NCBI GenBank assembly: GCA_002783385.1 | Contig: PFFX01000166.1 | Span: forward strand, 1-37,073 | From: Rhodobacterales bacterium CG15_BIG_FIL_POST_REV_8_21_14_020_59_13 | GTDB taxonomy: Bacteria; Pseudomonadota; Alphaproteobacteria; Caulobacterales; Maricaulaceae | Direction: 5' to 3' | Length of the DNA: 37,073 bases | In this document: positions 8,483-29,884 of the stretch, piece by piece | Layout of the letters: every line of letters starts with the position of its first letter | How positions within the stretch are numbered: position 1 is the stretch's first letter | The notes under the pieces: model-generated | The model's input: only the letters and a program-made list of their open reading frames with translations | Told to the model about the DNA's origin: nothing | Database searches by the model: none | Program-made: the position numbers and the translations under genes

Positions 8483-9499
8483 ATGACCCTTTTTCCCGAT
8501 ATCTCCCCTTTCGAAACCGGCTTTCATCCCACAGGTGACGGCCATTCGCTGTATTGGGAAAGGTGCGGACAGAAGGGCGGCATTCCTGTTGTATTTCTTC
8601 ATGGCGGACCGGGCTCCGGCTGTACGCCCACCCATCGCCGGTATTTCGATCCGGATGTGTATGACGTGGTGTTGTTTGATCAACGCGGCTGCGGCCGGTC
8701 AAGGCCGGTCTTCTCGCTTGACGGCAATACGACTCAAAACCAGATCGCAGACATTGAGGTCTTGCGATCGCTTTTCGGCTTTGAGCGCTGGATCGTCGTC
8801 GGTCCCTCTTGGGGGTCGGCGCTGGCCCTCGCCTATGCCGAGGCCTGCCCGACCGCTGTTTCGGGCCTGCTGGTGGAAGGTATTTTTCTGGCGTCAGACA
8901 AAGAGCTGGCCTGGTGGCATTACAGACCCGGCGCGCCCAGCCTGTTTCCCGATGCGTTCGAGGATTTTCTCGGCGGAAAAGGCGCGCCTGATCATATGAA
9001 TGTGCGAGACTTTTTTGCCTCGATCTGCAATGCCATGCAGGAGGAAATTGATATAAGGATGCCAGACCTTCAGCGCCTGTCTGATCCCTCAATCACTCTG
9101 ACAGAATTGCGGCGATCACCGCTCTACCGGTGGACAGAATACGAAAATCGTCTCTCCTGGCTCGAGGCTTCACCCGAACATGTTCGCCACAGCCTTGCCG
9201 CGCGCGGACCGGATTTTGTGGCCTCGCACTCGCTGATCGAGGCTCATTATTTCGCCAATGGCTGTTTCCTTAAACCTGATCAGCTCATCAGCAATACAGA
9301 CCGGCTCGCCGGCATTCCGATGGAAATCATCCAGAGCCGTTACGACATGGTCTGCCCGCCTGAAGCAGCCTTCCGGCTCAAAGCGGCTTGTCCGCATGCG
9401 AGGCTGACCCTGATCCAGAAAAACGGTCACGCCATGACTGATGCGGTTTTTCCAGCTCTGATTACCTCACTCGTGCGGCTTGCTGCAGGCGCTGACTAG
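8483..9499 (+). CDS. pip: Prolyl aminopeptidase (proline iminopeptidase), alpha/beta hydrolase
   Basis: MTLFPDISPFETGFHPTGDGHSLYWERCGQKGGIPVVFLHGGPGSGCTPTHRRYFDPDVYDVVLFDQRGCGRSRP...GPSWGSALALAYAEA. Family N-termini start exactly here, so the ORF-track start inside the tRNA is an extension. Confidence 0.93.
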   Translation: MTLFPDISPFETGFHPTGDGHSLYWERCGQKGGIPVVFLHGGPGSGCTPTHRRYFDPDVYDVVLFDQRGCGRSRPVFSLDGNTTQNQIADIEVLRSLFGFERWIVVGPSWGSALALAYAEACPTAVSGLLVEGIFLASDKELAWWHYRPGAPSLFPDAFEDFLGGKGAPDHMNVRDFFASICNAMQEEIDIRMPDLQRLSDPSITLTELRRSPLYRWTEYENRLSWLEASPEHVRHSLAARGPDFVASHSLIEAHYFANGCFLKPDQLISNTDRLAGIPMEIIQSRYDMVCPPEAAFRLKAACPHARLTLIQKNGHAMTDAVFPALITSLVRLAAGAD

Positions 9500-9999
9500 C
9501 GCCGAGGCAAGGGCCGGGCGCGGTCGCCGAACCACCACAGTGTCGCAGCACTCGCCGTGAACGCGATATTGGAAATGAAGTATCCAATAAATTCGGCTTC
9601 CACATCGTCAGCTATGAAATGATCTGCCATGCCATTCATGACGGCAAAGAACACGATCAGATAGAGCGCCCACAACAGTGGAGTCAGAACCGGCCGTACG
9701 AGCGCGCGTACAGCGGATACCCAAGCATAGCCGGACTCAAGTGCTGCATCGCCGTGGAGACTTTCGCCGAGCGCATCAAACCGCGCCGTTTGCAACGCTG
9801 TTTCCCGTTCGCTTTGGGCTGCCGAAGCCGCATTCCGCGCGCGCAGCTCCTCCATCTGCAATTCATGTGTCCAACGCTCGCGTTCCTGGCCGAGCTCCGC
9901 GCGGTGTTCGAAATACCCGGTGATGCGTCCCAGCGCCGTTCCCAGCGTGCCGAGGAGGCCGCCGGACAGGGCCGACGTGCCGATATCTGCGATATCCAT
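9496..9999 (-). CDS. Holin-like (3TM, GTA/phage type) membrane protein
   Basis: 167 aa; N-terminal Gly-rich segment, charged helical middle, WVSAVRALVRPVLTPLLWALYLIVFF...TASAATLWWFGDR C-terminal TM segments typical of 3TM holins; next to a DUF2793 fibre gene. Confidence 0.65.
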   Translation of the reverse strand: MDIADIGTSALSGGLLGTLGTALGRITGYFEHRAELGQERERWTHELQMEELRARNAASAAQSERETALQTARFDALGESLHGDAALESGYAWVSAVRALVRPVLTPLLWALYLIVFFAVMNGMADHFIADDVEAEFIGYFISNIAFTASAATLWWFGDRARPLPRR

Positions 10000-10002
10000 C
10001 GT

Positions 10003-10089
10003 CTATACCTCCGCACCGATATGTTCAGTGCATTTCACGTTTATAATGCGCGCAGCATCGCGCGCGGGTGAACCAAACGTGCCTGTCAT
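10003..10089 (-). CDS. 28-aa small ORF between fibre and holin genes
   Basis: MTGTFGSPARDAARIINVKCTEHIGAEV; consensus SD AGGAGG 6 nt upstream of ATG, starting 11 nt after the stop of the upstream gene, and ending 3 nt before the holin-like ATG. Confidence 0.6.
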   Translation of the reverse strand: MTGTFGSPARDAARIINVKCTEHIGAEV

Positions 10090-10099
10090 GTTAAGCCTC

Positions 10100-11740
10100 C
10101 TAGAGTTCAGCGCTGGCCGTGGCATGCGCACGGGCCAGTTCCAGCGCGGTATGCGACGCTGATTGAAAGTCTGCAGAAGCGGCGGAAATATTGAGCGGCA
10201 ACGCATTGAGATCTGTACCGCCAGCGTCGATTTTCCCAGTCGCAGCCGTTGCCGGCGAATAAATCGTCAAGCTGGGCGCGGCGCGCATCTCTACCGGGAA
10301 CCGCCAGTCAAATATTGCGGTTGTGGACGGGCCGGAAGTCGCACTCAGAAGGCTCCCCGAGACAGTGGCGCTGCCCGGCTCTATTCCTTGCGGCCAGGTT
10401 TTTGCAAAATATCGCTGGCATAAACGTAGATTGTCAGCAGCGCTCAGGCGCTCGAACCGGCTGGCGACGGGGCCACATTCCAACTGGACGTCAGCAAAAT
10501 CAATATCGGCCGACGTTTCTCCAGCCGATAAGTAGAATTCCAAGCCGAGAAAATGTCCTGCTCCCAATGTTTTTCCTGACAGGCTGGTGACAGCGAGTGG
10601 AACTTCAAATCGCTGCCAGTCCGTGGTCAGAGCGACGTACACCTGTGCAAGATTTTCATTTACCGATCCGCCTGAGCCAAAATCCCGACGAAATCTCGAA
10701 ACAATAGAGACTGCACGTGACGCTCTAACAAAAAAACTCAGCATTGCTTCGCCTGTAGGCAAAGACCGGACATTTTCCACGCGCTGCTCGATCCCGGGGT
10801 TGGTGCTTGCCGTGCCGGTCAGGCTCCAGTGCAGAAAGTGTGCCGGTGCTCCAGGAACATCCGCCTGACCGGGCGCAAAATCCTCCTGCGAAATGCTGGC
10901 GGACATTCCGCCCTCTGAGACCAAAAGCCATCGATCCAGCGTATAGCTTCCCGCCGAAATCCCGGGGAAATCCGTGCCCCGCTGAGCGATTGAAAAATCG
11001 CCATTGATGACAAGATTGCGGCGCTGACCGGGTGATGTGCCGTTGATGGCCGACACTGTCAGGCCGCCGCTTACCGGAATGGAAAGCCGGGTTGGTGATG
11101 CGCGAAACAATTCAGCCCAATTGCTGCCATCATCACTCATTTTCAGGAGAAGCAGGTCATCGCCGATCAATCCCAGCTCGGCACGGCCGGAAAACCCGCT
11201 CTGAAACAGCAAGGAGAGCACATCGCTGCTGCTTTCCTTGTTCAGGGTGTAGCGCAGATCTCCTGTGCCCCCCTCCCCCGCCGATTTTGCTGTCCACAAG
11301 ACCGCGTTCAGTTTGGCCGAGAACGGGTTTGCCGCATCTGCCGTGGTGCCGATTCCCAGAAGATCAAGGTTTTGCAGTTGTCTGATCGTATCATCGGCTG
11401 CAATCCATTCATTTCCGTCGAAAATGACGACACCGGTTTCGTCACTGATCCAGGCCATCAGACCTTCAACCGGTAGGATTTCCGCCCACTCCCCATCGCG
11501 GAAAAAAGCAAGACTGTCAGATGACATCATCGACCAGCTCTCCCCCGATCGCCCGGAGGTGAGAATGTAGGCATCGCCTTCGGCCGGGCTGACCGGTTCA
11601 GCCTCCATGGTCCGGCTCAGGGCATTCGCCTGAATCAGTGCATCCAATCGCCGGAATGTCTCATTCACGGTAACATGTTTTTGAGCCTGAGCCGCCATGA
11701 CATAATCGAGTCCGAGCCGGGGAGAGTTTTCTGTGGTCAT
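10100..11740 (-). CDS. DUF2793 domain protein, GTA/phage fibre- or spike-like
   Basis: MTTENSPRLGLDYVMAAQAQKHVTVNETFRRLDALIQ...EGDAYILTSGRSGESW...LMAWISDETGVVIFDGNEWI (DUF2793); C-terminal NLVINGDFSIAQRGTDFP..YTLDRW...ADVQLECGPVASRFERLS..DNLRLCQRYF typical of phage fibre C-termini. Confidence 0.85.
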   Translation of the reverse strand: MTTENSPRLGLDYVMAAQAQKHVTVNETFRRLDALIQANALSRTMEAEPVSPAEGDAYILTSGRSGESWSMMSSDSLAFFRDGEWAEILPVEGLMAWISDETGVVIFDGNEWIAADDTIRQLQNLDLLGIGTTADAANPFSAKLNAVLWTAKSAGEGGTGDLRYTLNKESSSDVLSLLFQSGFSGRAELGLIGDDLLLLKMSDDGSNWAELFRASPTRLSIPVSGGLTVSAINGTSPGQRRNLVINGDFSIAQRGTDFPGISAGSYTLDRWLLVSEGGMSASISQEDFAPGQADVPGAPAHFLHWSLTGTASTNPGIEQRVENVRSLPTGEAMLSFFVRASRAVSIVSRFRRDFGSGGSVNENLAQVYVALTTDWQRFEVPLAVTSLSGKTLGAGHFLGLEFYLSAGETSADIDFADVQLECGPVASRFERLSAADNLRLCQRYFAKTWPQGIEPGSATVSGSLLSATSGPSTTAIFDWRFPVEMRAAPSLTIYSPATAATGKIDAGGTDLNALPLNISAASADFQSASHTALELARAHATASAEL

Positions 11741-11891
11741 GCCTTGCGAAGCTCCTTTTTCGGGTCTCAAGGCTAGACGCAGACCTGGGCGGGGCGGATA
11801 ACGTCATGCACTCTCCATGCCCTCACGGCTTGACCTAGGGCCTTGCCCGCGCCTTTTTCTTGCCAAGATAGCGGCCAGCAGGAATTCTTTG

Positions 11892-13244
11892 ATGACCGAA
11901 ACGCTCCACGCCCTGATTGACGGATTACCCACAAGCAGCGCTGATCACTGGCGTGCGCTGGCGGATGCAGCTTTACGCGGTGAAGACTTTGATTCAACGC
12001 TGGTGCGGGACACGCCGGATGGCATTGAACGGGGGCCTGTTTTCTTCGAAACTGAGCGCGCCGGTGCTGCCGCAGCGCCGCGCAAGGAAGCGTTTCTGCC
12101 TTGGCATATCCGACAGATTTTCACCGAGTCCAGCCCGTCAGAGGCCAATGCGGCCATTCTGGCAGATCTGATGGGCGGTGTTTCAGAAATCGGCCTGCAA
12201 ATCGACCGGCAGGGCGCATTTGGCGTAACCATCGGCACCCCGGATGACCTCGCTCGTACGCTAGAGGACGTGGACGTTTCGATTGCATCCGTGTTTCTGG
12301 AGTCCGGACATAATTTCGAGCCCGGTCTGTTTGCAGACTGGATGAAAAAGGCTGGTGCAAATCGGGCCGGTCTGGGTGTGGATGCCGCCGACGCCCGCCT
12401 AGCCGATCTGGCTAAAAACCATCCCGGCTATTGCATCGCCAGCATTGATGCCCGAGTCATCCACGAAACCGGCGGAACCGAGGCCCATGAGCTCGCCTTT
12501 GCGGCCGCAGGGTTTGCCGAAGCTTTTGGCAAACTCATCGAGGCAGGCATTTCTGCCGCCCAAGCGGCTGGACAGATCGAAGTCGTTTTTGCCGCTGATG
12601 CCGATATTCACCTCTCGCTTTCCAAAATCCGGGCAGGCTATCTGGTGCTTCAGAATATTCTGGACGCTTATGATGCGGCCTCCAGCGCGCCGGAGATGCG
12701 CGCTGTGACGTCTGGCCGGATGATGACGCGCAAGGCACCGTGGACCAATATGATCAGAACATCCGCAGCCGGATTTGCCGCAGCCTGTTCCGGTGTGACC
12801 AGCCTCACCGTCCTGCCCGCAACCCATGCACTCGGCCGACCCGACCGGCTTGCGCGCAGAGCCGCCAGAAATCTGCATATCCTGCTGCAGGAAGAAGCAC
12901 ATTCCGGCTTGGTGGATGATCCGGCGGGTGGTTCCTACCTGCACGAGCATCTGACGGCTCAACTCGCGGAAAAGGCTTGGAAGATGTTCCAGTCGATAGA
13001 AGCCGATGGCGGCTATTCCGCGATTGGTGCCGGCAGTGAGTTCGTCACGCAAGTTGAAACGGCGCGTCAAACTTTGCTTAGCCAGTATCAGATCGGAGAA
13101 CGCGTCCTGTTTGGCATCAACCGTTTTGCTGCGCCGGATCTGCGCGACATGAAATATGAGGAAGGCCTGACTCCGCCGTCCAGCGCCTCGTTGTTTCCTG
13201 CGATCCGGCTTGAGGATGCCGCTCAGGACGGAGCGAAATCATGA
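11892..13244 (+). CDS. mutA: Methylmalonyl-CoA mutase small subunit (beta), short form
   Basis: 450 aa from ATG 11892; [87 protein letters not shown]. Confidence 0.9.
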
Positions 13245-15373
13245 GCCAGCGCATCAACTTCGCGAAACGTGAATTTGCGGCAGACCTCTCCAGCAAACGC
13301 GAAGTTAAATCCCGCTGGCAAGCACCCGAAGGTCTTGAAATCAAATCCGGTTACAGTGCGGATGATGTTGATGAGCGCTTGCGCCAGACTCTTCCGGGTG
13401 CCGCTCCCTTCATTCGCGGCCCCTACCCGACCATGTTCCTGCAGCGTCCATGGACGATCCGCCAGTATGCCGGATTTTCAACGGCCCGGGATTCCAACGC
13501 TTTCTATCGCCGCAATCTGGCTGCAGGTCAGAGAGGATTGTCAGTTGCATTCGATCTGGCGACGCACCGGGGATATGACAGTGATCATCCGCGCGTGGCC
13601 GGTGATGTCGGCATGGCCGGGGTTGCCATCGATTCCATTTATGACATGCGGGAATTGTTCAACGGCATACCTCTTGATGAAATGAGCGTGTCCATGACCA
13701 TGAATGGCGCGGTCCTGCCCGTCATGGCGCTCTATATCGCGGCCGCAGAAGAGCAGGGCGTCAAACCGGAACAGCTGTCCGGCACCATCCAGAATGACAT
13801 TCTGAAAGAATTCATGGTGCGGAATACATATATCTATCCACCTCAGCCATCGATGCGGATCATCTCGGATATTTTTGCCTATACGGCTGAAAACATGCCT
13901 CGATTTAATTCTATTTCGATTTCCGGCTATCACATGCAGGAAGCCGGGGCCCCAGCCGATATCGAGCTCGCCTACACAATTGCTGACGGCCTAGAATACA
14001 TCAGGACCGGCATTGAAGCAGGTCTGGACGTCGACAGGTTCGCGCCGCGCCTCTCCTTCTTCTTCGGCATTGGTATGAATGTCTTCATGGAGATTGCGAA
14101 ATTGCGGGCGGCGCGCCTTCTATGGGCGGGACTTGTGCAACAACGCTTCGAGCCGAAGTCGGACAAATCCATCTGCCTGCGGACCCATTGCCAGACCTCC
14201 GGCTGGTCGCTGACCGCGCAGGATGTGTTCAACAATATCGGACGCACGGCCCTAGAGGCCATAGCAGCCATCGACGGACACACACAGTCCCTCCATACCA
14301 ATTCACTGGATGAAGCTTTGGCGCTTCCAACAGATTTTTCAGCCCGCATTGCGCGGAACACCCAGCTTGTTCTGGCCGAGGAAAGCCGTCTGATCGATGC
14401 CATAGATCCATGGGGTGGGTCCTTTTATGTCGAATGCCTGACACAGGATCTTGCCACCCGCGCGCTCGAACATATCCGCGAAGTCGATGAACTTGGCGGT
14501 ATGGCAAAGGCCATCGCCGAGGGCACACCGAAGCTTCGGATCGAGGAAGCTGCTGCCCGGACCCAGGCTCGCATCGACAGCGGACAACAGACGATTGTCG
14601 GCATCAATAAATTCATCCTAGAGGAGGACGAAGACGTTCCGGTATTGAAAGTGGACAATTACCAAGTGCGCAAGGAACAGGAAGAGAAACTGAAACGCAT
14701 ACGGGAGGAACGCGATGGCACTGCTGTAAAGGGGGCGCTCACAGCACTGACCCGCGCTGCCAGAGAAGGCGGAAATCTTCTTGCGCTTTGCGTAGATGCC
14801 GCCCGGGCCAAAGCCACTGTCGGAGAAATGTCGGCTGCTATGGAGCAGGTCTTTAACCGTCATGAGGCCGAAATCCGTGTGATCAAAGGCGTTTATGCTG
14901 ACGAGGCCGGGCCTGATAAAAAAGTCGCTGCGGCCATCAAGGCCGCTACAGCCTTCGAGGCACGTATCGGCCGCAAGCCGAAAATCCTGATCGCGAAACT
15001 GGGCCAAGATGGCCATGATCGCGGTCAGAAGGTTGTGGCTTCTGCCTTTGCAGATATGGGTTGGGAGGTCGTGATCGGCCCCCTCTTTCAGACGCCGGAA
15101 GAGGCCGCAGCACTCGCGGATAAAGAAAATGTCCACGCTGCAGCAATGTCATCACTGGCTGCCGGACACCTCACCCTCCTGCCGGAATTGCGCAATGCCT
15201 TGCGTGATCTAGGGCGCGAGGACATGCTGGTCATTGTCGGCGGCGTTATTCCACCTGACGATGAGGCCGTCCTGCGTCAGATGGGGGCGGCAGCCGTCTT
15301 TCCGCCCGGAACCGTGATCGCTGACAGTGCGTTGAACCTCTTGAAACGTATGGAGGTCGCTGTGAAGGCTTGA
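13241..15373 (+). CDS. scpA: Methylmalonyl-CoA mutase large subunit
   Basis: 710 aa; [64 protein letters not shown]12-binding [45 protein letters not shown] overlap with the small subunit. Confidence 0.98.
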
Positions 15374-22583: not shown

Positions 22584-22747
22584 GCGATCCTCCTTCATGA
22601 ACGCAACATAAACGATTTGATCCAGTTTCCCATCAAATCACCCAAATTCAGCCCGCATTGCCGCCGCAATCTGCCACATTTCATGGTTAACCATTTTGCT
22701 GCGTCACTCCCGACGTGGGCTGTCTAAAATAATTCTTGGGGGAGGAA

Positions 22748-23677
22748 ATGGCTTTGAACGAATTAAACGAAACTGCCACTCGGCAATTTTACAAGCCGGA
22801 GAATGAACGCGATCAGCGGTCGCGTGCTCTGGCGAGTGAACATTTTTCCAATGGTGCGCACATTCAGGATTTTGACCTGCAATTTACGTTGTCCCGGGCG
22901 CGACGTGATTTCGAAAACCTGCGTGCTTTCCGCCGCACATCAGGTTGGGCTTTTGACGATCCCACCGGCAAGGAAAAAAGCGGCAATCCAGGAAAACCCA
23001 TTGAGCGGTCTGCCATTTACCCGGATTCGCACATCCTGACCTTCTCTGTCCTGGCTGCGCTGATTCTGTTTGAAGGCTTGGCGAACGCCTATTTCTTCTC
23101 CGGCAGTTCTGATCTCGGCCTTCTTGGCGGCTGGCTTCAAGCCATCACGGTTTCCTTTGTAAATGTCATCACCGCATTCTTCGTGATCGGGTATCTTTGC
23201 CTGCGCCATCTGACCAATCCGCAAAAACGCTGGTCTTTTGCGGCCGCGCTCGCCGGCCTTCCGATCGGGATTGCTTTCGTCGTCGTGCTCAACCTCGCCG
23301 CGGCGCATTACCGCGACCTGCTTGAAATTCACTCTGCATCTCTGGCGCTAGGTGGTTCAAACGTGACGGGCGATTTGATCGCGCCGATCCAGCATCTCAT
23401 GGCGGCTCCTTTCTCTTTCCAGACTCTTGAAGCTTATCTTTTGCTGACACTGGGTCTGACCTTTGGCATCATAGCAGCCTACAAAGGCCGTACGTTTGAT
23501 GATGCGATCCCGGGCTTTGGTGTGGTGCAACGCCGCGCCGAGCGGTCGGCTCGCGAACTCAACCGGGTGGTCAAGAAAGCTGCGGGTGGCCGCAATTCGC
23601 CGGAAGAGCAAATTGCCGAAGCCCAAATTCTGCTGATGGATATGGCAGAAGATTTTGGATCAGCGCGCCCGCGCTGA
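22748..23677 (+). CDS. Uncharacterised membrane protein, about 90-aa N-terminal soluble region plus about 4 TM segments
   Basis: MALNELNETATRQFYKPENERDQRSRALASEHFSNGAHIQDFDLQFTLSRARRDFENL...; hydrophobic segments ILTFSVLAALILFEGLANAYFF, ITVSFVNVITAFFVIGYLCL, AALAGLPIGIAFVVVLNLAAA, LEAYLLLTLGLTFGIIAAY. Start uncertain (ATG 22748 or TTG 22754/22736). Confidence 0.7.
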   Translation: MALNELNETATRQFYKPENERDQRSRALASEHFSNGAHIQDFDLQFTLSRARRDFENLRAFRRTSGWAFDDPTGKEKSGNPGKPIERSAIYPDSHILTFSVLAALILFEGLANAYFFSGSSDLGLLGGWLQAITVSFVNVITAFFVIGYLCLRHLTNPQKRWSFAAALAGLPIGIAFVVVLNLAAAHYRDLLEIHSASLALGGSNVTGDLIAPIQHLMAAPFSFQTLEAYLLLTLGLTFGIIAAYKGRTFDDAIPGFGVVQRRAERSARELNRVVKKAAGGRNSPEEQIAEAQILLMDMAEDFGSARPR

Positions 23678-23699
23678 TCCCGCCTTTGGGGGATGAGTA

Positions 23700-24506
23700 A
23701 TGTCCGGACGCGACCTGCTTGGTATATTTAACCTGTTAATCGTGGCGGGCGTGGTGGCAGCGGTCAGCTATTTAGCGCTGACCCTGCGGCCAGCGGAATA
23801 CGATGCTGATACACTCTGCATTGCGGGCATTGTGCCACCGCACCGCGTTGTCATTATCGACAAGACTGACCTTTACTCCACCCAACAAGCAGCCGTGATT
23901 GAGCGTATTATCCTGACCCAGCGCGATACGCTGGCAGTGGGCGAACGCTTGTCCCTGTTCGAGCTGGACGAGAGCGGCCGGCTGGATGCCACAAACCAGT
24001 TTTCCCTGTGTAATCCAGGAAGTGGCGACCAGGTGAATCCGCTCTATCGTAATCCGGATCGCATACAGGCTCGCTATGAATTCCTGTTTGATGCGCCTCT
24101 ACAGCAAGCGCTCGCCGATCTGGTGGTGCCCAAAGATGCGCCGCAAAGCCCCATTCTGGAAGCGCTCGCCGAACTCGCACAGGAGCCATCCATGGCCCAG
24201 ACCGTGCCCGGACGGCGGATCATCCTCGTTTCGGACATGCTCCAGAATTCAGAGATTTTCTCGGTCTATGGCCGGTCTCGTGGCGCGGTGTTTGACCGTC
24301 TGCCGCCGGTTGCCGATACGGTTGAAGCTATCCGCGAGGAATACGGTCTGGCACTGGCTGGCGTGGTGCTGGAAATCTATCTAATCGAGCGGCGTGGCTG
24401 GGAATCAGAGCAGAATGGTGCCCTCAGAACCTATTGGGCCCAAGTGTTCAACCAGCTCGGCGTCACCATGAGCTGGAATGTCCAGCCCACTGACGCTCTT
24501 TCCTGA
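23700..24506 (+). CDS. Uncharacterised vWA-like protein with N-terminal membrane anchor
   Basis: 268 aa; TM LGIFNLLIVAGVVAAVSYLAL; vWA-like VVIIDKTDLYSTQQAAVIERIIL, RLSLFELDESGR, PILEALAELAQEP, RRIILVSDMLQNSEIFSVYG. 22 nt downstream of the membrane protein gene. Confidence 0.7.
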   Translation: MSGRDLLGIFNLLIVAGVVAAVSYLALTLRPAEYDADTLCIAGIVPPHRVVIIDKTDLYSTQQAAVIERIILTQRDTLAVGERLSLFELDESGRLDATNQFSLCNPGSGDQVNPLYRNPDRIQARYEFLFDAPLQQALADLVVPKDAPQSPILEALAELAQEPSMAQTVPGRRIILVSDMLQNSEIFSVYGRSRGAVFDRLPPVADTVEAIREEYGLALAGVVLEIYLIERRGWESEQNGALRTYWAQVFNQLGVTMSWNVQPTDALS

Positions 24507-24518
24507 CACCATTACTGA

Positions 24519-26267
24519 TCAGAAGTGCCAGACAGCGCGGGTGATAAACGCCTGATCGTCGGTATCGCCGACGCCGAAGCGATATTCCATCTCCAGATCC
24601 AGACGCTGTGACGGAGCTGACGTTTCGCTTTCGTCAAACCAGAGCGAGAACACCACACCCGGGCCTAGTTCAAGCCGTTCGCGGGTCTGGAATGTGTCGT
24701 CTGACCATTGTGCCACGCCGGTCACATAGGGCGTGACGGTCCAGCGCTCTCCAGTGCGTAAACGCCGCCCCTGACGGATAGAGGCATAAGCGGACAGAAA
24801 TTCAGGATCATCCGGGATGTACGCAAGATCAGCGAAGACCGTCGTGTAATTCCAGCCTGTCTGGCTCGGGTTCCAGTCAAGCCCGTCCGCCCAGCCATAG
24901 CTGGCCCGTAACAGCCAAGCGTCACGTGCCTGATCACCGCCAGCGATCATGCGTTCACCTGATAGGTAGAAGTCGTGCCCGGCCAAGGGCTTCCAACGCG
25001 CGCCAAGGCCAAGCTGAAGCGTGCTGTCATTGAGCGTTATACTTCCCGGGTCCGCCGAGACATAACCGCGTCCGAACAGCGTCAGACCGGTATTCTGCGC
25101 ATTAAAAGCGTCTGGCCGCCAGCCAAACTCACCACCGGCCTGAGTTTCATTGGGTCCGGTTTCCGGCAGATTGACGGAATTGGGTGCCGAGCCATCTCGA
25201 TAGGAAGCAAAAATAAAGCCGTAAGTGGACCGTTCCAGTTGCTCCACCTGACGGCGCAGTCTGTATATGCGTTGATCGCGCGCGTCAGCTGCTTCTCCGT
25301 CGCGGAGTGATGGATCGAGAATAGCGGCGCGAAAGGATACCGCAGCCTCCTGCTCACGATCTGCCTGCATCAAAGCATAGCCCAGTTCCTCGCGAACCGT
25401 GCTACGGGCTGGATCAATGACCAATACGCGCTGAAACAGGTCGGCCGCCAGGTCCGCATCGCCCACGTGTTGCGCGGCGTAGGCGGTCGAAAGCAGGACG
25501 TCCACATTGCGTGGATCGTCTTCCAGCGCCCGGCTAAATTCGACGAGCGCGGCGCGCTCCTCTCCTGCTTGTTGAAGGAAGAGTCCCCGCTGGAAACGTC
25601 GGTAAGGCCGGTCCTCTATTTCAATGGAGCGGGCGAGATACATGGCCGCCGCATCCGGCTGGGTTTCAGCCATGACCAGAGCGCGTTCCTCGAAATAAAG
25701 CGCTAGGTCAGGTCCTGTGATCCCCGTCACATCAATCTGTTGCAGGCGAGCCGCGCCGGATTGCGGCCGTCCATCTAGACGCGCAGCCCGCGCTGCCATC
25801 AATTCGTCGAACGGATCACCTGTAATACCGGCGGCCTCGCTCCACCCGATTGCCGAACGGGAAAATTCGCCTGCTGCTTCAGCTTGGTAACCAAGGCTCC
25901 GGTAGACATAAATGCGCTGAGCTTCATCCAGTTGGTGCCGGTAGATAACAGCCTGCCAGAAGGCTTCGGAGGCTTGTGAGACATCGCCTGTTTCCACAGC
26001 ACATTCGGCGGCTGCGATATAGTCGAGCGCCTGCTGCCCTGATGATGCAATCGTATTGAGCGTGGGCAACGCTGTTTCACATCCTGCCTGCTCCAGAAGT
26101 CCTCGCGCATCAGCCCGGTGTTGATCAATAGATCGCGGGTCTTCATCTGCGCCCGCCGAAACTGCAAAACTCAATGCCGTCAGTGAGGCGGTGGACGCCA
26201 GCAGAAGCCGGGGCCGCAGATTGTATTTTGCCGGGGTGATCCAGCCTTGATTATAATAAAGGGACAT
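24519..26267 (-). CDS. nfrA: NfrA-like outer-membrane TPR/beta-barrel protein (phage N4 adsorption protein A family)
   Basis: Signal peptide, multiple TPR-like repeats, C-terminal barrel DAWLLRASYGWADGLDWNPSQTGWNYTTVFADLAYIPDDPEFLSAYASIRQGRR...RLELGPGVVFSLWFDES...LDLEMEYRFGVGDTDDQAFITRAVWHF, comparable to E. coli NfrA C-terminus; follows nfrB with TGATG coupling. Confidence 0.8.
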   Translation of the reverse strand: MSLYYNQGWITPAKYNLRPRLLLASTASLTALSFAVSAGADEDPRSIDQHRADARGLLEQAGCETALPTLNTIASSGQQALDYIAAAECAVETGDVSQASEAFWQAVIYRHQLDEAQRIYVYRSLGYQAEAAGEFSRSAIGWSEAAGITGDPFDELMAARAARLDGRPQSGAARLQQIDVTGITGPDLALYFEERALVMAETQPDAAAMYLARSIEIEDRPYRRFQRGLFLQQAGEERAALVEFSRALEDDPRNVDVLLSTAYAAQHVGDADLAADLFQRVLVIDPARSTVREELGYALMQADREQEAAVSFRAAILDPSLRDGEAADARDQRIYRLRRQVEQLERSTYGFIFASYRDGSAPNSVNLPETGPNETQAGGEFGWRPDAFNAQNTGLTLFGRGYVSADPGSITLNDSTLQLGLGARWKPLAGHDFYLSGERMIAGGDQARDAWLLRASYGWADGLDWNPSQTGWNYTTVFADLAYIPDDPEFLSAYASIRQGRRLRTGERWTVTPYVTGVAQWSDDTFQTRERLELGPGVVFSLWFDESETSAPSQRLDLEMEYRFGVGDTDDQAFITRAVWHF

Positions 26268-28618
26268 CAGGCATCCTCCATGACCAGATCGGCATGAGCC
26301 TCCTGGATTTCGGTCCAATCCACCTCGGTCAGATAACCCAGCGCCTTGGCGCGCTGAACAAAGCCTAGCGGAGATTTGGGTTGGGCGGCTAGTGCTGCAT
26401 CCAGATCCGTTTTCTTGATGATGCGCTTCTGGACGAGAGCGCTCCCGAGCGCAGATTCATCCACAGCGTCCACGCCTTTTTGTTCGGTCAGTAATTGCGC
26501 ATGGCTGAGCGCACCGCGCCGGACCAAGTGATCGCCCAGCCGGACCCAGTCCTTGCGCAGGCTGCGCCAGACGGCCGACACTTGCTCATCATCCAGAATG
26601 GACAGGCGTTCGAGCACACGGGCGGCACGGCGGTCGGTCTCCAGAACCTCCGGCTGATAGCCAAAACGGATGCCGAAGCTGACATCGCTCAGCGGTGCAA
26701 CAGAGACTTTCAGGGACCGGCCCAGCTTGTGCCTCAAATCGGACAACTGGTTTTCGCTCAGTGGTTCACCCACAGCGATTTGCAAGCTGCGGCCATCCCG
26801 CGCCATTGGAAAAGCACCATATTTGGCGGCAAGGTCACGCGGGAATAGCTTCAAGACCTCTGGTTTTATGTCTAGCGGATCCAGCATAATGCGTTCCAGG
26901 CCTTTATGCTCGGCAACGGCATCCGCCAGCTGATCATCATTTATGTCTCCGAGATCGAGCAGAAGAAGCCCCAGCGGGCGGTATTCATCCTCTTGCAGCG
27001 CAAGCGCGCGTTGCAGCCCACGCTCATCAATGGCGCCCCAGTAGATCAGCGCGTCGCCCAAGCGGCCTCCTTCGCCCTGTCCCAGCTCAGCCATAGAGGG
27101 ATAGGCGTGGGCGGTCTTGTCCCAGGTGATACGGTTTCCGCTGATGACGTGCCAGAGATAACGGCGCGCGGCGCGCATGGAGGCGAGATAGCCAATATAA
27201 TTGCCCCACACCATTCGAACGGGAGCGAGGATCGCGTATTTCAGCCCGTGTGCAGCGCCGGTAAAAATGAGGCGGTGGACAACGCGATTTACAAGGAAGA
27301 CGAAGTTGATCAGCACAATCGACCAGACCCAGCTGTCGGGGTCGATCAGTGGCGGTAATCCGCCTGCTTGCGGAAAGAGCGTCGAGATCAGCCAATACAA
27401 TGCCCATTGCAGAAGAATGGCATAGGCCAGCATACCCGTCGGGGCGGTCCAGATGGCTTTCCTGTCGCGATAGAGGAAATAGCGATGGGAGGCCGGGCCG
27501 ATCCAGCCCAGCTGCTTCCAGCCGAGATAGGATATGCCCAGCATCCAGCGGGATTTCTGACGTACGGACACTTTCACACTGTCCGGGAAAAACTCACGCG
27601 TACAGACCAGTTCGCGGCGGTATTTTTGAACATCCCGATTGGCAAACCAGGCCTTGCGCGTAGCATAGGGCATACGCACCCAGTAGCGCACGAACCTGGA
27701 TTTCAGACCGGCTTCATAAAAGCGGTGGCCAATATCATAATCCTCTGTCAACGAATCCACATTGAAAGGCTGGTTATGGCGCTCCTTACACAGGAGCGCG
27801 ATCGCATCGCGGCTGAAGGCAGTGGCGACACCGGCCGAAGGGACCAGATCTGTCATGTGCGAGCGGGCAATGAGATCCTTGCCATGCCATTCAGCAAACT
27901 CGTCCATGTAGTGACATGCCGTCAGCGCAGTCCATTTACGCGGCATGGACAAGACTGGTAATTGCAGCATATCGGCGTGGTCGAGATAGGCATTGATCAC
28001 CTTGAAGGACATGGGATGAATAACATCTTCCGAGTCCTGCATCAGAATGCCGTCAAAGCGTTCACCCAGCTCTTCTTCGCGCTTGACGATCCCGGCAATC
28101 ATCCAGTTGAGATTGTCCGCCTTACAGGTCGGACCATTGTGACCGACAAAGGCGATGTTGATGCCGTCATTCTGGCGGACGATACGATTGACCTCGTCGA
28201 TGGTTTCCTGATCGTTGGGATAGACGCCGACAAAAATCTCGTAATTGCGATAATCCATGGTCTTGAGCGTATTGACCAGCATGCGGCCAATCACGTCTGC
28301 TTCGTGCCAGGCTGGTACCATGACGGCGAGTTTTTTCTGCTCCATTTCATGAAGCTGCTTCATGGAGGGCACATAGCGGAAGGGCCGGGTTGCAATGCGT
28401 TGTGCCGTCAAGACCCAATAATAGAGGTCCAGAAAGGCGTCATCGACCGATGAGATAAAGATGGCGATGGCGGCATAAACCGTCAGGCCGCTCAATATCG
28501 TCCAGTAAATACGGATCGCCTCGCCCGAAAGCAGACTGGCGAGCACGGTTTCACTCCATGCCGCAAGGCCCGCATCGGCTGAGGCGATGTGCGCGAGGGA
28601 GGGATCGAACCCTTCCAT
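26267..28618 (-). CDS. nfrB: NfrB-like membrane glycosyltransferase with MshEN (c-di-GMP-binding type) domains
   Basis: 783 aa; KLAVMVPAWHEADVIGRMLVNTLKTMDYRNYEIFVGVYPNDQETIDEV, MQDSEDVIHPM, SLTEDYDIGHRFYEAG, VRQKSRWMLGI, WDKTAHAYPSM; then RLGDALIYWGAIDERGLQRALALQ / PLGLLLLDLGDINDDQLADAVAEH MshEN repeats. Collinear with E. coli NfrB. Confidence 0.93.
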   Translation of the reverse strand: MEGFDPSLAHIASADAGLAAWSETVLASLLSGEAIRIYWTILSGLTVYAAIAIFISSVDDAFLDLYYWVLTAQRIATRPFRYVPSMKQLHEMEQKKLAVMVPAWHEADVIGRMLVNTLKTMDYRNYEIFVGVYPNDQETIDEVNRIVRQNDGINIAFVGHNGPTCKADNLNWMIAGIVKREEELGERFDGILMQDSEDVIHPMSFKVINAYLDHADMLQLPVLSMPRKWTALTACHYMDEFAEWHGKDLIARSHMTDLVPSAGVATAFSRDAIALLCKERHNQPFNVDSLTEDYDIGHRFYEAGLKSRFVRYWVRMPYATRKAWFANRDVQKYRRELVCTREFFPDSVKVSVRQKSRWMLGISYLGWKQLGWIGPASHRYFLYRDRKAIWTAPTGMLAYAILLQWALYWLISTLFPQAGGLPPLIDPDSWVWSIVLINFVFLVNRVVHRLIFTGAAHGLKYAILAPVRMVWGNYIGYLASMRAARRYLWHVISGNRITWDKTAHAYPSMAELGQGEGGRLGDALIYWGAIDERGLQRALALQEDEYRPLGLLLLDLGDINDDQLADAVAEHKGLERIMLDPLDIKPEVLKLFPRDLAAKYGAFPMARDGRSLQIAVGEPLSENQLSDLRHKLGRSLKVSVAPLSDVSFGIRFGYQPEVLETDRRAARVLERLSILDDEQVSAVWRSLRKDWVRLGDHLVRRGALSHAQLLTEQKGVDAVDESALGSALVQKRIIKKTDLDAALAAQPKSPLGFVQRAKALGYLTEVDWTEIQEAHADLVMEDA

Positions 28619-29745
28619 CAGCTGGCCTGCCGCAATTCTTTGCCTGCCGGCAGCTTCCTGGCGAGAATGCCGGTGATGCGCTGACTGGCCTTGCCATCGC
28701 CAAACGGGTTTTTGCGGCTTGCCATTCTGCCGTGAGCGTGGGCCTGCGTGAGCAGAATCGATGCTTCGCGGACGATGACAGCGGGGTCTGTGCCCACCAG
28801 TTTGGCTACGCCCGCGTCGATCGCCTCCTGGCGTTCAGTGGTCTCGCGCAGGACCAGCACCGGCACATCAAAGCTAGGCGCTTCTTCCTGAACACCGCCG
28901 GAATCCGACAGGACGAGATGGCTGGCTTTCAGAACCGCGATGAATTCGGGATAGGCGAGTGGCGCAATCACATGAATGCGATCAGTCGCGCCCAGCATGG
29001 CCTCGACTGTCTCCCGGACCCGCGGATTGGAGTGAGCCGGAAATATGATGCGAATATCCCGATGAAGCCGGATGAGTTCCAGCGCGGCCCGGCAAATACC
29101 AGCGATACCCTCGCCCCAGCTTTCGCGACGGTGAGCGGTCAACAGAATGATCCGTTCGCCCGGCTTGACCTGATCCAGAATCGCCGGTGCGCTAACGTGG
29201 TCAGCCATATCGAGTACGGTGTCGATTATGGTGTTGCCGGTGACCCAGATCTGTCGGGGACGCACGCCATCCAGCCGCAGGTTTTTCTCGGCGAGACGTG
29301 TCGGCGCGAAGTGAAAATCAGCAATCGGCGCGATCAGCCTGCGAAAGCTTTCCTCGGGGAATGGATTATTGGTGTCGCCACTGCGAAGACCTGCCTCGAC
29401 ATGACCTACCGGGACCTTGTTCAGATGCGCCGCAAGCGCACCGGAATACGCGGTGGCCGTATCGCCTTGAACAAGCACAGCACGCGGATGATGCTTTTCA
29501 ATCCAGCGGCCAAGTTGATAAAGTAGGCCTGCAGACAGGTTGGTCAGCGAACAGGGATCCCATCCGCCACTCAGGGTAAAGGCTGGCGTGATATCGACAG
29601 CATCCAGCGCCTGTTTTGCCAGATCGCCATGTTGTCCCGTAGCGATCCAGACCGGCTCAAGCGCCGTTTTTTTCAAACTCCGGAAAACCGGCGCGAGCTT
29701 TAAAATCTCGGGCCGTGTCCCAGCAATAATTGCGATTCCCATCAT
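28618..29745 (-). CDS. wecB: UDP-N-acetylglucosamine 2-epimerase (non-hydrolysing)
   Basis: MMGIAIIAGTRPEILKLAPVFRSLK; VLVQGDTATAYSGALAAHLNKVPVGHVEAGLRSGDTNNPFPEESFRRLIAPIADFHFAPT; SDSGGVQEEAPSFDVPVLVLRETTERQEAIDAG. TGATG overlap with nfrB. Confidence 0.95.
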   Translation of the reverse strand: MMGIAIIAGTRPEILKLAPVFRSLKKTALEPVWIATGQHGDLAKQALDAVDITPAFTLSGGWDPCSLTNLSAGLLYQLGRWIEKHHPRAVLVQGDTATAYSGALAAHLNKVPVGHVEAGLRSGDTNNPFPEESFRRLIAPIADFHFAPTRLAEKNLRLDGVRPRQIWVTGNTIIDTVLDMADHVSAPAILDQVKPGERIILLTAHRRESWGEGIAGICRAALELIRLHRDIRIIFPAHSNPRVRETVEAMLGATDRIHVIAPLAYPEFIAVLKASHLVLSDSGGVQEEAPSFDVPVLVLRETTERQEAIDAGVAKLVGTDPAVIVREASILLTQAHAHGRMASRKNPFGDGKASQRITGILARKLPAGKELRQAS

Positions 29746-29850
29746 CGCCCCCCAGTGCGATTGGCGGGCAAGCCCGCCGGAAATCCCTCGCACCGGGAAA
29801 GTCGCTTTGAATCAGGGAGTAATAACCACCGCTAAAAGGCGATTCCGGGA

Positions 29851-29884
29851 CAGAAAAGACAAAACCGCCCCGATTGGGGCGGTT
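29851..29884 (-). terminator. Rho-independent terminator of the M28 peptidase gene
   Basis: Minus strand AACCGCCCC-AATC-GGGGCGGTT followed by TTGTCTTTT. Confidence 0.88.

Follow-up and report, generated by a model that had tools for sequence, protein, structure and literature searches.

Three genes occupy the minus strand between positions 24519 and 29745 of the window (the whole 37,073-nucleotide stretch of DNA that was analysed), at the coordinates given in the initial annotation. The first operon gene, wecB (28618–29745), encodes a non-hydrolysing UDP-GlcNAc 2-epimerase of 375 aa and may alternatively start one codon earlier, at the ATGATG at 29748. It is followed by nfrB (26267–28618), encoding an inner-membrane processive GT2 glycosyltransferase of 783 aa with a C-terminal MshEN domain, and by nfrA (24519–26267), whose 582-aa product combines a signal-peptide-like N terminus, a TPR solenoid and an outer-membrane barrel. 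As had been claimed, the sequence reads TGATG on the minus strand at both junctions, giving stop/start overlaps between wecB and nfrB (28616–28620) and between nfrB and nfrA (26265–26269); the starts of nfrB and nfrA are therefore placed at 28618 and 26267, and translation is presumably coupled across both overlaps. On the 5′ side, an M28 peptidase gene is followed by a terminator-like hairpin with a T tract (29863–29884, minus strand; read from 29884 to 29863, a 9-pair stem, AACCGCCCCAATCGGGGCGGTT, then TTGTCTTTTC) and then by wecB, and on the 3′ side a convergent gene ends at 24506. Because of this upstream hairpin and convergent downstream gene, the three genes appear to form a transcription unit of their own. 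A promoter scan gave no useful signal (four candidates found, 2.8 expected). The two convergent genes downstream of nfrA (22736–24506, plus strand; 313 and 268 aa) matched no Pfam or NCBIfam family, and ORFs of similar size and orientation adjoin the operon in four Hyphobacterium loci (L022, L024, L028, L029).

The gene identities originally proposed hold for all three products, which match their families far beyond chance. WecB matches Epimerase_2 (E 2e-99, Pfam profile search) and the TIGR00236 wecB model (411 bits, cut-off 210), is 40.5% identical to E. coli WecB, and keeps five of five catalytic positions, K15 together with D95, E117, E131 and H213, the latter four of which we take to be catalytic in the E. 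coli enzyme. The gene linked to nfrB is the sole Epimerase_2 gene in the host assembly (2.3 Mb, 93% complete). In E. coli WecB, K15 has been tested experimentally as a catalytic position (PMC8669472).

Over 723 aa, NfrB shares 33% identity with its E. coli counterpart (BLASTP, E 5e-126, 383 bits). It scores 664 bits against the NfrB-like PRK15489 model (cut-off 537), which places it in the wider NfrB family, and 568 bits against NF008411, the E. coli-type NfrB equivalog with a cut-off of 1170; judged by that threshold it counts as a homologue but falls short of an E. coli-type orthologue. A grouping with the cellulose or PNAG synthases found no support in pairwise BLASTP, in which E. coli BcsA and a partial PgaC gave no significant similarity (E > 0.2, against 5e-126 for NfrB). 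The processive GT2 motifs are conserved (D195, TED293, Q354xxRW358). At the C-terminal end, the MshEN profile scores 51 bits (cut-off 23), with an intact pair of half-motifs at aa 519 and 548, 29 residues apart; L520/G521 align with the c-di-GMP-binding residues L490/G491 of E. coli NfrB, and V568 replaces its L537. E. coli NfrB mutants at D169, D267, QxxRW and L490/G491 are defective (PMC8669469), and all of these positions are kept in the window. The NfrB model (pLDDT 81) broadly matches BcsA, with a low TM-score and large rmsd, and its C-terminal part closely matches c-di-GMP-bound MshE. Four GGDEF proteins are encoded in the genome, and the GGEEF motif is intact in two or more of them; no diguanylate cyclase (DGC) or YbcH gene is linked to the operon at this locus. 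Of the c-di-GMP gating proposed in the initial annotation, the residues themselves are in place, and gating is plausible because the MshEN motifs are intact and GGDEF proteins are available in the genome; binding of c-di-GMP would then activate NfrB.

The nfrA product carries an NfrA_C domain (E 4.5e-27, 95 bits against a cut-off of 25) in addition to TPRs, is encoded adjacent to nfrB, and shares 24% identity with E. coli NfrA across 490 aa. Its model (pLDDT 85) shows a TPR solenoid and, C-terminal to it, a barrel made of 12 strands at residues 348–581. The top Foldseek matches are TPR proteins. An alignment of the model with E. coli BcsC spans 554 columns; its global TM-score is low (0.29), perhaps owing to the curvature of the solenoid and the size of the barrel. 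In Glycocaulis/Oceanicaulis-type loci (L020, L021, L023, L033), nfrA is followed by a gene for a second, short NfrA-like TPR protein of ~290 aa; none was found in the Hyphobacterium loci.

The nearest named relatives of NfrB are from Hyphobacterium (94% identity to H. indicum), and the window, from a marine alphaproteobacterium, therefore derives from Hyphobacterium or a close neighbour within the Maricaulaceae. NfrA was found in seven of eight genomes of the genus. Across the order, WecB scored over the cut-off in 9/9 NfrA-bearing genomes, but in just 2/20 from the same family that lack NfrA (Fisher p 5.5e-6, kinship between genomes being ignored). Three Glycocaulis-type genomes have no wecB beside nfrB and a strong WecB elsewhere in each, which fits the published rule that nfrB has wecB linked to it in genomes without another wecB (Junkermeier & Hengge, 2021; PMC8669469).

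The comparison was extended to 89 locus records, for which the 80 collection matches were chosen by similarity to the window and are not a census. All 70 loci retrieved from Pseudomonas, Burkholderiales, Rhizobiales and some other groups carry a BcsB-like gene, in most cases between wecB and nfrB, and none of the 19 compact-type records, in which some genomes were entered twice, does so. The host genome has no BcsB-like gene. Outside the nfr locus, nine NfrA-bearing genomes gave no BcsB-like match to PF03170, nor to a profile of five NfrB-linked BcsB proteins, a search that included no positive-control genome; the profile from those same five proteins recovers all 70 BcsB-type loci. In a more even sample of Alphaproteobacteria, with 384 other genomes, 12 had NfrA_C: wecB stands immediately next to nfrB in seven of them, BcsB lies upstream of nfrB in two, and three have no linked wecB. 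One Pseudomonas nfr locus (L042:12653–15164) has AlgF-, AlgX- and DUF4434-like genes downstream, which suggests glycan acetylation in that branch.

Phylogenetic trees revealed a supported clade of Maricaulales NfrB proteins, apart from both the BcsB-type clade and E. coli NfrB. The E. coli protein pairs instead with NfrB of another compact alphaproteobacterial locus, L138 (G464; wecB 13351–14505, nfrB 11174–13348; support 100/100), in which wecB is directly adjacent to nfrB and which may bridge the E. coli and compact forms. As the trees are midpoint-rooted and contain long branches (E. coli and L144), they do not give the polarity of BcsB gain or loss. MshEN is absent from NfrB of the Glycocaulis and Oceanicaulis relatives, its motifs are weakened in Maricaulis, and two further alphaproteobacterial NfrBs (561 aa) are probably too short to contain it. 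We tentatively suggest that the Maricaulales and other Alphaproteobacteria could carry a distinct deep Nfr branch, a stand-alone three-protein synthase–exporter without a BcsB-like co-factor, within which c-di-GMP control was lost. If so, the branch would offer natural pairs of regulated and unregulated systems for testing what gating does.

Taken together, the operon likely encodes a compact Nfr/NGR-type system for the synthesis and export of an exopolysaccharide, using UDP-ManNAc and controlled by c-di-GMP. This reading rests on the family matches, the conserved residues, the BcsC- and BcsA/MshE-like folds and the linkage of the sole WecB, as well as on WecB/NfrA co-occurrence, linkage within the compact clade, the presence of NfrA in most genomes of the genus and the GGDEF proteins. 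In such a system WecB would convert UDP-GlcNAc to UDP-ManNAc, which NfrB, a membrane GT2 enzyme with a cellulose-synthase-like fold, would polymerise while threading the chain across the inner membrane, with c-di-GMP bound to MshEN as the trigger. The TPR domain of NfrA would lead the chain across the periplasm and its barrel would let it out at the cell surface. The initial annotation is supported in its gene identities, its operon structure and its inferred ManNAc-type glycan pathway, with UDP-ManNAc as the presumed donor and a homopolymer as the presumed product. Given identities to E. coli of 33% for NfrB and 24% for NfrA and a separate deep NfrB clade, donor and product could differ here; even for E. 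coli, the literature cited here leaves the chemistry of the NGR polymer uncharacterised.

Sequence does not reveal donor specificity, and the GT2 fold is common to cellulose and hyaluronan synthases, so NfrB might use UDP-GlcNAc or mixed donors to make a glycan resembling PNAG or a heteropolymer, the role of WecB being limited to adjusting the donor pool. We regard this as unlikely in view of the strong co-occurrence of WecB with NfrA and of the non-significant BLASTP results for BcsA and partial PgaC against the 383 bits to NfrB. The genome also contains one WecG/TagA-family glycosyltransferase, on another contig, a possible second consumer of UDP-ManNAc. It is compatible with WecB mainly feeding UDP-ManNAc to a different surface glycan through such a transferase, the linkage to nfrBA being incidental, but this is very improbable: wecB and nfrB overlap at stop and start, their linkage is conserved in many alphaproteobacterial families, and Caulobacter encodes the WecG family while lacking Epimerase_2 altogether. 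Nor was an ECA-type UDP-ManNAc dehydrogenase found by model in the genome, where the single strong sugar dehydrogenase best fits a UDP-glucose dehydrogenase (543 bits versus 185–193).

Besides glycan export by the Nfr-type system, and compatible with it, the locus might provide the receptor that N4-like phages recognise in this lineage, as the E. coli homologues and NGR glycan do for phage N4 (PMC8669472). We consider this quite unlikely. Among the matches listed, homologues of N4 gp65 are carried chiefly by Achromobacter, Escherichia, Erwinia and some marine phages, and those of gp64 chiefly by Escherichia, Pseudomonas, Campylobacter-labelled, Achromobacter and Acinetobacter phages, with no host from the Maricaulales; furthermore, Circe, an N4-like Caulobacter phage, needs smooth LPS (PMC12633290). 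The earlier label of phage-receptor locus is accordingly reduced to conjecture for this lineage. Elsewhere in the window, the minus strand at 9496–11770 encodes a tail-fibre-like protein (DUF2793; PHROG 4492 tail fibre, E 7e-66) adjoined by a small protein matching PHROG 6637, possibly a host-recognition module of a gene-transfer agent or prophage remnant.

The novelty implied for the operon linkage was not borne out: wecB–nfrB linkage has been known since 2021 (PMC8669469), with a published Achromobacter nfrA–nfrB–wecB cluster (PMC8669472) and NfrB already reported in some Alphaproteobacteria (PMC8669469), and the compact layout is common in this class. Modestly new, as small additions, are the compact layout lacking BcsB and the loss of MshEN in relatives. 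A three-gene operon with its own precursor enzyme, in a genome where WecB is unique and no ECA-type dehydrogenase was found by model, would be a clean system for identifying the donor sugar, and the MshEN-less relatives could serve as a reference for how c-di-GMP exerts control.

Cellulose (Bcs) and PNAG (Pga) systems have their mechanistic logic and folds (BcsA, BcsC) in common with the window operon, which differs in the lack of significant NfrB similarity to BcsA or PgaC, in MshEN as the c-di-GMP domain and in a modelled barrel of 12 strands. The PGR locus of Acinetobacter baumannii is a related case that shares an NfrB-like synthase, a WecB homologue and an outer-membrane pore, but adds a BcsB homologue and a PgaB-like protein, and phage dependence has been shown there (PMC12507263). 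The wecB–bcsB–nfrB–nfrA(–algF/algX) loci of Pseudomonas, Burkholderiales and Rhizobiales share linked wecB, NfrB with MshEN, and NfrA; they have a BcsB-like gene and sometimes alginate-type acetylation genes, whereas the window locus has neither. Compared with the E. coli NGR system (Junkermeier & Hengge, 2021; Sellner et al., 2021), in which wecB lies in the ECA cluster, the window has wecB linked to nfrB, no ybcH and no linked or known dedicated DGC, an NfrA of 582 rather than 990 aa, and an NfrB of 33% identity. The two systems nevertheless have the same three protein families, each without a BcsB-like gene at the locus, and are alike in their GT2–MshEN architecture, active-site and c-di-GMP residues, and TPR-barrel exporter.
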